Shown in pieces: positions 4,271 through 30,477 of a stretch of 39,912 nucleotides of DNA. The notes under the pieces are model-generated. The model was not told where the DNA came from and made no database searches. It worked only from the letters and a program-made list of their open reading frames with translations. Positions within the stretch are counted from its first letter, which is position 1, and each line of letters opens with the position of its first letter. Both the position numbers and the translations under genes were made by a program. The DNA lies in NCBI GenBank assembly GCA_001788015.1, contig MFZO01000002.1, positions 6,976-46,887 of the forward strand, in the 5' to 3' direction. Source of the stretch: Candidatus Roizmanbacteria bacterium RIFCSPHIGHO2_02_FULL_38_11. GTDB lineage: Bacteria > Patescibacteriota > Microgenomatia > UBA1406 > GWC2-37-13.

Positions 4271-4402
4271 AGATATTTTTACTCTTTGAAGACTTTTAAT
4301 TTTATTAAGGAGTAGTTGTTCGATTTTCTTTTTGTTTCTCAAATTACTTTGAGCTTTTAAGAAAATCTTGAGGTTGACAATTGCAACCTGAGGGTGCCCG
4401 CA

Positions 4403-4492
4403 GATCCTTCGGTTCGCTTCGCTCACTCAGGACAAGTTTACGCAAACCAAAGTTCGAATTACCCTCTCCTCGTCTCCCCGCCAAAGGCGGGG
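4403..4492. repeat. Intergenic repeat cluster: GATCCTTCGGTTCGCTTCGCTCACTCAGGAC plus CCCCGCCAAAGGCGGGG hairpin
   Basis: First unit resembles 9521-9564; second is a perfect hairpin (CCCCGCC AAA GGCGGGG), with a related core CCCGCCTTTGGCGGG inside the tsaD insert. Confidence 0.6.
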
Positions 4493-4547
4493 TCACACGC
4501 TTTTACCTATACTGAACTCCTTATTTCCAAAGAGCTATAAAATCTTA

Positions 4548-27881: not shown

Positions 27882-29421
27882 TAGTTTCAAGCGATCCAAT
27901 AATGATAGCGTTTACAGTCCAGAATGTGTAGGCAACTTTGGAAGCTTCAAATACGTCTATATAGGAGGCGTTAATAAGAAGACCGAATAATCCGAAGAGA
28001 TAACCGTAGTAGATATATTTATCGAGATTGGGGAAAGATTTTATCTTTTGCCAGATAAATTTTACGATTGATAAAATAAAAAAAGAAAAGATTGAGGTAC
28101 CGAGTAATCCAAATTCACCCAGCCATCTGAAATAATCGCCGTCTGTCGCTTCAGTGATGCTGGATGGACCCGAACCAAGGATTGGATTTTTCAAAAAGGC
28201 ATTGATAGCGCGCGGCCACTCAACCTGGATACGTGTGGAAAATGAAATATCCGAAACTACCGTACTGATTGGTTTAAGTCCGGCGGAAATTGTGGCAAGC
28301 ATCTGGGCTTCCTGAGAGGCGGTCAATACTTTACCTGATTTTCTCGCTTCGTCTCGTATATCGTCCAAAATACGCTCCCTTACCAGTTTTTCAGTTTTAG
28401 CGTTTGTTTTTTCTTCACCTTCCCTGTTTATTTCTAGATAAAGTGTACCGGCTGGAAGTTCTTTGGTGGTAATTTTTTGCGGTATTACTACTTGTCCGGT
28501 TTTTTCATTGACGTAGATTTGCTTTACGCGTAAAAACTGCGCCCAGCGAGAAGCCAAACTGTTTGTCAGAAAGCTCAATCCAACAGAAAGAGTAATGACA
28601 ATGAAGAGGGTTTTAAATTTTCTGATAAAAATGAGAAAAGTTGTAATTGAGATTAAGTAGGCAAGAGACGAGCTTCTTGATGCAGTTAATGTGAGTATTA
28701 AAAGGCCAAAAGTAAAAATTAAAAAATATAATAGATTTCTTCGCCAAAAAAAAGCTCCTAACGCAATTGGCAGCAAGAAAACGAGATAAGCTGCTAGATC
28801 ATAATGACCTGAGAATGTGGATGATACTCTAGCTTCAGGAGTTAGATATAGTATGTATCCTTTTGCAAATTCGGGATTCATGGTTTGAACAGCCGGCCAA
28901 CCCAAAAACTTCTGGCCGAGCGCATAGACGCTGACGATTACAAGAGTGACAATTAGACAAGAAAAATAGAAGAGAAAGTCTTTCCTTGATTTAATAGTTG
29001 ACGTAATGATAAAAAAAATAAGCGAATACTCAATCCTTCTAATAGCATGAAGAAAACCTAAATGTTTATAAATTATGGTTTTTTGGATAAATGCACCCCA
29101 AAAAAAAGAAAGCATTACCGCTCCCCAGAAGGCAAGCATAAGCAATAAAAACTGCTTATTTAGCAAGATTTTCCTTCTCAAAAGCTGGACCACAAAGATC
29201 AAGGTTAAAAAAGCAACGTAAAGATCTTCAAGGCGGATTGCAATATAAGTATAATCTATGAATTTGAGGGGGAATTTCGGATAGAGAGGAATTAAAAAAA
29301 TAAATCCGACTGCAAGAATTTTTACCAGGTTATCGTCAAACCAACTTAACCATTTGATAAGCTTTTGCATAAGTTTCTTTAAGATATTTGTTATTGAATA
29401 TTTGTCCGATTGCCAGGCCAA
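27859..29421 (-). CDS. O-antigen ligase/polymerase-like membrane protein
   Basis: 520 aa, about 12 TM segments, large soluble loop, NPILGSGPSSITEATDGDYFRWLGEFGLLG typical of Wzy/WaaL-type proteins. Start uncertain (N-terminal part overlaps the upstream GT2). Confidence 0.8.
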   Translation of the reverse strand: MAWQSDKYSITNILKKLMQKLIKWLSWFDDNLVKILAVGFIFLIPLYPKFPLKFIDYTYIAIRLEDLYVAFLTLIFVVQLLRRKILLNKQFLLLMLAFWGAVMLSFFWGAFIQKTIIYKHLGFLHAIRRIEYSLIFFIITSTIKSRKDFLFYFSCLIVTLVIVSVYALGQKFLGWPAVQTMNPEFAKGYILYLTPEARVSSTFSGHYDLAAYLVFLLPIALGAFFWRRNLLYFLIFTFGLLILTLTASRSSSLAYLISITTFLIFIRKFKTLFIVITLSVGLSFLTNSLASRWAQFLRVKQIYVNEKTGQVVIPQKITTKELPAGTLYLEINREGEEKTNAKTEKLVRERILDDIRDEARKSGKVLTASQEAQMLATISAGLKPISTVVSDISFSTRIQVEWPRAINAFLKNPILGSGPSSITEATDGDYFRWLGEFGLLGTSIFSFFILSIVKFIWQKIKSFPNLDKYIYYGYLFGLFGLLINASYIDVFEASKVAYTFWTVNAIIIGSLETTHPQGVK

Positions 29422-30271
29422 TCAATGCTTTTAATTTTAACATAAATTTAAGTAAAATTTGATCTTGTTTGGGATAATGTTTATTATAAAAGTACATAAG
29501 TCCGTTAAAAACTTGAATAATCGGATAGGTTCTTCCGCTGCTTGAGGCTGAGCCGAAGTGAATGAATTCAGCCTCCGGATAAAAAAATACTTTGTAGTCG
29601 TGTTTTTTAGCTCGAAATAAAAGATCGATTTCATCCATATACATAAATATATTTTCGTCAAAGCCTTCGATTGATTTTAGATATTGTTTTTTGGTTAAGA
29701 TACAGGCTCCTGATATCCAATCTACTTCTTTCACTTTATTTGGAGAATAGCGCGTTATACCTATATAATCTCCACGCAAGAATAGTGCAGTGAATATAAC
29801 TGGAAGGGTATAAAACGGCCCACAAGACGGTTGTTCCGTCATGTTTTCGTTCAAAAGTTTTCCACCTAAAAAATTGATCGAATTTTCTTTCTGTCTATAA
29901 AAGTTATACAATATTTCTATTGCATCTTCTAAAATCAATGTGTCTGAATTGAGAAAGAGAATATAATCAGATCGAGCGATTTTCACTCCTTGATTGTTTG
30001 CTTTACCAAACCCCAAATTTTCTTTATTTTCAACTATTCGAACCTGCCCGCTTAAGCCTGAGCCTAGCGATGGCAGGCGGGTATTTGAATAATTGGATGA
30101 GTATTTTCTTAAAACTTCAACAGAGCCGTCAGTTGAATGATTGTCGACAATAATAATTTCATAATTCCAAGAAGAATTTTTTAAAGATTTTAGAATTGAT
30201 TCCAGGCAGTTTTTAGTAATATCTTTAGTGTTGTAGGAAACAACGATTATAGAAAGGTCCGGCTTTGACAT
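29336..30271 (-). CDS. Glycosyltransferase family 2
   Basis: DLSIIVVSYNTKDITKNCLESIL, IIVDNHSTDGSVEVL, NLGFGKANNQGVKIARSDYILFLNSDTLI, WISGACILTKK, DEIDLLFRAKKHDYKVFFYPEAEFIHFG. Confidence 0.95.
   Translation of the reverse strand: MSKPDLSIIVVSYNTKDITKNCLESILKSLKNSSWNYEIIIVDNHSTDGSVEVLRKYSSNYSNTRLPSLGSGLSGQVRIVENKENLGFGKANNQGVKIARSDYILFLNSDTLILEDAIEILYNFYRQKENSINFLGGKLLNENMTEQPSCGPFYTLPVIFTALFLRGDYIGITRYSPNKVKEVDWISGACILTKKQYLKSIEGFDENIFMYMDEIDLLFRAKKHDYKVFFYPEAEFIHFGSASSSGRTYPIIQVFNGLMYFYNKHYPKQDQILLKFMLKLKALIGLAIGQIFNNKYLKETYAKAYQMVKLV
30043..30082 (-). repeat. Repeat of the ACCCGCCTGCC family inserted in frame in a GT2 gene
   Basis: cctgcccgcttaagcctgagcctagcgatggcaggcgggt; encodes about TRLPSLGSGLSGQVR between YSN and IVENKENLG. 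Confidence 0.75.
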
Positions 30272-30291: not shown

Positions 30292-30477
30292 GCTAGGGTA
30301 GCTCAGCGGTAGAGCAGTCGTTTCACCCGCCTGCCGAAGTACGTTAGGCTGGATAGCTCAGAGGTAGAGCACACGTTTCATAAGCGTTAGGTCGGGAGTT
30401 CGAATCTCCCTCCAGCCACTTCGTACGGCGAGCAGGTAAGCGACGGGTCGTGGGTTCGATTCCCGCCCCTAGCACCA
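30292..30477 (+). tRNA. Interrupted tRNA (probable CAT anticodon; CAC if the boundary shifts by 1 nt) with encoded CCA; exons 30292-30325 and 30437-30477
   Basis: Acceptor GCTAGGG(30292-30298)/CCCTAGC(30467-30473) perfect; D stem GCTC/GAGC; anticodon stem GTCGT(30317-30321)/GCGAC(30440-30444); T arm GTGGG-TTCGATT-CCCGC; A73 + CCA (30475-30477). Removing 30326-30436 restores a 7-nt loop TTCATAA. Confidence 0.85.
30347..30418 (+). tRNA. Complete tRNA (anticodon CAT) nested in the anticodon loop of the outer tRNA; CCA not encoded
   Basis: Acceptor GGCTGGA(30347-30353)/TCCAGCC(30411-30417) perfect; D stem GCTC/GAGC; anticodon loop TTCATAA (30377-30383); T arm GGGAG-TTCGAAT-CTCCC; discriminator A30418. 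Confidence 0.92.

Follow-up and report, generated by a model that had tools for sequence, protein, structure and literature searches.

A tRNA-Met gene nested in the anticodon loop of another tRNA-Met gene, and the recurrence of palindrome-ended tRNA nests across Patescibacteria

We analyzed a stretch of 39,912 nucleotides (the window) from the draft assembly, in 51 contigs, of Candidatus Roizmanbacteria bacterium RIFCSPHIGHO2_02_FULL_38_11. This organism belongs to the Candidate Phyla Radiation (CPR), a group of tiny, mostly uncultured bacteria. An elongator tRNA-Met gene in the window is interrupted by an insert bounded by the two ends of a palindromic repeat, between which lies a second, complete tRNA-Met gene. 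The locus comprises the following features.

29336..30271, minus strand: divergent glycosyltransferase gene, used as synteny marker of the tRNA-Met locus
30043..30081, minus strand: copy of the palindromic element without a tRNA (CCCGCCTGCC-ATCGCTAGGCTCAGGCTTAA-GCGGGCAGG), inserted in the reading frame of the glycosyltransferase gene
30292..30325, plus strand: outer elongator tRNA-Met, 5' half (acceptor, D arm and 5' side of the anticodon arm, to anticodon position 35)
30326..30436, plus strand: insert of 111 nt, palindromic element with tRNA
30326..30335, plus strand: left arm CCCGCCTGCC of the dispersed palindromic repeat
30336..30346, plus strand: left linker GAAGTACGTTA, partially paired with the right linker in the predicted fold
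30347..30418, plus strand: inner tRNA-Met (CAT; ARAGORN, Rfam), probable working gene
30419..30426, plus strand: right linker CTTCGTAC
30427..30436, plus strand: right arm GGCGAGCAGG, consensus GGCGGGCAGG
30437..30477, plus strand: outer tRNA-Met, 3' half with encoded CCA, identical to that of the congener G003

In the intact sequence, ARAGORN and Rfam called the inner tRNA only (CAT, 68.6 bits). Removal of the insert restored a 7-nt anticodon loop, TTCATAA, and ARAGORN then called the outer gene as tRNA-Met(cat), split after nt 34, between anticodon positions 35 and 36. The insert boundaries agreed with the uninterrupted gene of G003 (alignment of query 1-41, then 153-193), which matches the outer 5' half at 33 of its 34 nt. 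Those results confirmed the description in the first-pass annotation of a tRNA split by 111 nt and of a complete CAT tRNA within the insert. That annotation had also proposed that the insert flanks pair with each other as a clamp, and the minimum-energy fold of the nested locus indeed contains a clamp stem (GTACG/CGTAC plus GC-rich pairs) together with both cloverleaves, at -80.8 kcal/mol compared with a shuffle mean of -60.5 (z = -4.7). The clamp is not peculiar to this tRNA: its two sides are the ends of a palindromic repeat with dispersed copies. The left linker resembles those around the inner tRNA-Met of two other genomes, G020 and G007.

Both tRNAs had been read as probable CAT tRNAs for Met and/or Ile2. 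The CAT anticodon was confirmed, and as the genome has Ile-TAT in place of Ile2, both copies look more like elongator Met than Ile2. Besides the outer gene, the inner gene is the only elongator tRNA-Met recognised in the assembly. A census of the CAT tRNAs yielded one further gene, of uncertain identity, at 18714-18784 of contig C13 (L084), an odd tRNA with a low score. A canonical initiator tRNA anticodon arm was searched for in the assembly and not found. The insert had been described as having no group I or II ribozyme core. Rfam reported only tRNA and a glmS ribozyme in the window and, at two more of the nested loci in this genome, tRNA only. With no Rfam match of that kind in the insert, a group I or II intron was rejected. 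Compared with the family model, the glmS ribozyme (4312-4512, minus strand) has a long inserted loop.

The insert has the ends of a dispersed repeat (CCCGCCTGCC and GGCGAGCAGG), one strict pattern of which matched 15 times in this genome. The tRNA-free copy in the glycosyltransferase gene sits approximately 245 nt upstream of the nested tRNA-Met and encodes the peptide LPSLGSGLSGQVR, which is missing in G003. For another strict pattern of the repeat, shared with the nests, a search of 40 class genomes of the nested set found 64 copies without a tRNA. Excision restored a callable tRNA in none of the 30 tRNA-free copies examined, and 3 of those 30 fall by eye in tRNA remnants. Six matches to Y1 transposases, four of them above the family cut-off, were found in the genome; a similar palindrome lies close to one Y1 gene (L171), and the others have a weak one or none nearby.

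This genome has four nested tRNAs, for Met, Gly-TCC, Leu-GAG and Val-GAC. We searched the 373 genomes of the class with a strict arm...arm pattern, using the reversed pattern as a control. The pattern matched in 51 genomes, compared with four matches for its reverse, and a tRNA was enclosed in 55 of the 71 distinct matches. A sample of the phylum added 30 tRNA-bearing loci from families beyond this class. In total, 86 fetched loci from the sampled Patescibacteria/CPR genomes carry a tRNA between the same palindromic ends, CCCGCCTGCC...GGCGGGCAGG, and the nested layout, for which the first-pass annotation had proposed a survey of related genomes, is not unique to the window. In a generic D-arm/D-arm scan over all species genomes of Bacteria and Archaea, the true nests recognised among the matches listed were in Kerfeldbacteria, Levybacteria and Parcubacteria (all CPR) and at two further loci. 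Three-deep nests with the same isoacceptor throughout were found at L097 (G204, Thr) and, by eye, at L455 and L465. None of the 121 matches listed for a similar pattern in viral contigs holds a tRNA, and a viral origin of the cassette was rejected on that ground.

The outer genes were recovered by excising CCCGCCTGCC...GGCGGGCAGG in either orientation at the exact element ends. As judged by program or by eye, each of the 86 inserts interrupts a tRNA gene that shares isoacceptor and strand with the inner tRNA. After excision the outer gene was callable at 49 of the 86 loci, with the same anticodon as the inner gene in 44 of these and a mutated or one-base-off anticodon in the other five; the remaining 37 outers are broken, their isoacceptor still recognisable by eye as the same. 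Of the 37 callable class-level outers, 28 were struck at nt 33-38, in the anticodon loop; the others have the insert in the D arm, around nt 10, or within the T loop. The arms face either way with respect to the tRNA (26/30 in the class set), evidence against a single fixed cassette. Copies bearing a tRNA were seen only in tRNA genes (86/86), and most tRNA-free copies lie elsewhere. Selection alone falls short of explaining this restriction, since an extra intergenic tRNA should be harmless.

To relate the two genes of each nest, we compared sequences and synteny. The outer tRNA-Met of the window is uninterrupted in G003 at the syntenic locus, with 71 of 72 nt identical (0.99). The inner tRNA-Met shares 97% identity (0.97) with the inner gene of G020 and with the single gene of G019, and 74% (0.74) with its own outer. 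By these identities, the outer is the resident gene and the inner belongs to a different tRNA-Met lineage. Intermediates occur at this one syntenic Met locus. A first resident type is uninterrupted in G003 and invaded in the window genome. A second is uninterrupted in G004, whereas in G001 its remnants flank an inner-type gene and in G005 a 5' remnant is kept. A third is uninterrupted in G035 and invaded in G007. Three resident types were thus met both uninterrupted and invaded, indicating that genes of the inner type invaded differing residents at a single locus. G215 and G242 have Val-CAC outers with 93% identity that were struck at the same site, by different inner genes with opposite arm orientation, pointing to independent insertions. 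For Leu-TAG, a same-genus pair has inserts and inner genes 99% identical, outers 65% identical and flanking blocks approximately 74% identical.

These comparisons bear on the reading that a palindrome lands in a resident gene and that repair or template switching then places a second copy of that same gene inside it. Such a duplication would account for the constant isoacceptor and strand despite the mixed arm orientation. It is also in line with D and anticodon arms that are nearly or fully identical in some pairs (L114, L118, L123 and L137), and with palindrome-broken tRNA fragments that adjoin an intact copy outside CPR. Over all pairs, however, the inner gene is no nearer to its own outer (0.76) than to the outers of other genomes (0.74), which argues against self-duplication, and at the Met locus the inner lineage differs from the resident. 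We regard this duplication as unlikely in general; a recent self-duplication of the outer gene was rejected by the identity test.

Several other broken tRNA genes were observed. At L228 (Flammeovirgaceae), L269 and L272, an intact copy of a tRNA is immediately preceded by a palindrome-broken 5' fragment of that tRNA. In tRNA-Val at L266 and L179, the anticodon loop is broken by a different palindrome family (CCCCGTTAGAT...); at L266 the CCCCGTTAGAT-type palindrome surrounds a cognate tRNA, and at L179 the outer 5' half alone is left ahead of an intact tRNA-Val gene. At L212 and L198, tRNA 5' halves that end in the anticodon loop and do not have the usual arms stand upstream of an intact tRNA of the same isoacceptor, with a TATAAT-like box between the two at L212.

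The outer genes decay in many loci. At the class level, 19 of 56 outers were not callable. Among the 37 callable ones, all seven acceptor pairs are kept in 31, an acceptor mismatch is present in 6 (0 of 56 inners) and GTTCRA is missing in 6 (2 of 56 inners). Several outers contain further, tRNA-free palindromes, and some have no 3' end. Such damage would be expected if function is lost once the insert has landed. Continued function of the outer gene may be possible in the youngest cases, including that of the window, where all stems and CCA are kept. The retained stems and CCA had been taken as an argument for function, a reasoning that was not borne out, as they fit a recent insertion. The first-pass annotation had weighed a split tRNA awaiting ligation against a recently disrupted gene. 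The latter is supported by the uninterrupted gene at the syntenic locus of a same-genus genome and by other nested outers that are broken or half lost.

The use of both tRNAs would require that RNase P and 3' processing cut out the inner tRNA while the clamp holds the outer halves, which a ligase such as RtcB would then join, making the inner tRNA a bacterial tRNA intron. Consistent with this, the outer gene of the window is perfect, CCA included, many outers keep paired stems despite divergence from their inners, the predicted fold comprises the clamp and two cloverleaves, and RtcB is present in the genome. RtcB is, nevertheless, common in bacteria, and because the arms belong to a generic dispersed repeat, their pairing needs no splicing function. 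Moreover, 37 of the 86 outers are not callable, some having no 3' end or carrying additional palindromes, inserts also occur in D loops and T loops, and the inner gene alone is enough in G001 and G005, where the outer is a remnant. The archaeal-type tRNA splicing endonuclease (PF01974) was searched for in the genome and not found, leading us to reject an archaeal-type intron as well. The splicing of a split tRNA is hence left without support by the decay of the outers, the D- and T-loop inserts and the missing endonuclease, and we consider the use of both tRNAs quite improbable. Chance juxtaposition or an assembly artefact can be dismissed almost with certainty, given that the same architecture recurs at 86 loci in many families and independently assembled genomes, that a tRNA is enclosed in 55/71 of the class matches versus 0/121 of the viral matches listed, and that the reversed-pattern control is near zero.

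The reading that we favor, and consider probable, is that a palindromic insert bearing a tRNA replaces the gene from within, the outer resident gene being inactivated and the inner one taking over. A palindrome-ended insert would have landed in the anticodon loop of the resident tRNA-Met, inactivating it and bringing a complete tRNA of the same isoacceptor from another lineage. The inner tRNA is presumably transcribed from the resident promoter and freed by ordinary 5' and 3' tRNA processing. The outer halves would then decay, finally leaving the inner gene alone at the old locus. In the window genome, the function of the outer gene has presumably been lost. In a genome that has approximately one gene per isoacceptor, an insertion would survive only with the same tRNA, and thus only those that bring a cognate tRNA are likely to persist.

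One candidate for moving the insert would be a Y1 (REP-type) transposase that acts at its palindromic ends. Alternatively, foreign DNA might be taken up and recombine by way of the short homology that the outer halves provide. A promoterless cassette in need of the resident promoter would explain why no tRNA-bearing copies were seen outside tRNA genes, as would entry guided by homology of the tRNA halves. We tentatively raise the further possibility, less secure than the replacement itself, of homing tRNA genes, i.e., palindrome-ended cassettes that travel from cell to cell, insert into no tRNA gene but the cognate one via tRNA-half homology and repeatedly replace essential tRNA genes across Patescibacteria.

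The nests share features with several known systems. Like REP/REPIN and Rickettsia palindromic elements, the repeat consists of short dispersed palindromes found in both orientations and in intergenic positions, and as with the Rickettsia elements, it is inserted in frame in a protein gene, with one case in the window. We know of no description of either type with tRNA cargo. Archaeal and eukaryotic tRNA introns and bacterial group I tRNA introns also lie in the anticodon loop; unlike those, the present insert has neither endonuclease nor ribozyme core and is itself a tRNA, and the outer gene is often decayed. In tRNA-dependent lysogeny (Guerrero-Bustamante and Hatfull 2024, PMC10865867), a phage disrupts an essential single-copy tRNA gene of its host and brings one of the same isotype. 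In both situations a tRNA gene is broken, the junction is not rebuilt and the insert has its own matching tRNA, which takes over in lysogeny and probably does so in the nests. That system, however, involves a whole prophage, a tyrosine integrase and an att core, whereas the nested inserts are approximately 110 nt long, have palindromic ends and carry no gene but the tRNA, which sits directly between the two outer halves. With no integrase and no phage genes in its 111 nt, the insert is not a member of tRNA-dependent lysogeny. Genomic islands collected in Islander also split a tRNA gene on integration, the incoming DNA preserving tRNA function; they restore the split gene from their own sequence and carry the displaced fragment at the far end of the island (PMC4383910). 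Here, by contrast, the insert holds a full second tRNA, and the two outer halves are still next to it. A literature search, with poor coverage of subscription papers, found no earlier report of a tRNA nested in a tRNA.

The nesting hides broken tRNA genes that go unreported by annotation tools. The series of stages at one locus, from uninterrupted to nested to remnant, gives a direct view of replacement and decay. That inner and outer are so strictly cognate points to a mode of entry that has yet to be described for an element of this small size, and the nests would represent a repeatedly used path along which foreign genes take the place of essential, single-copy tRNA genes.
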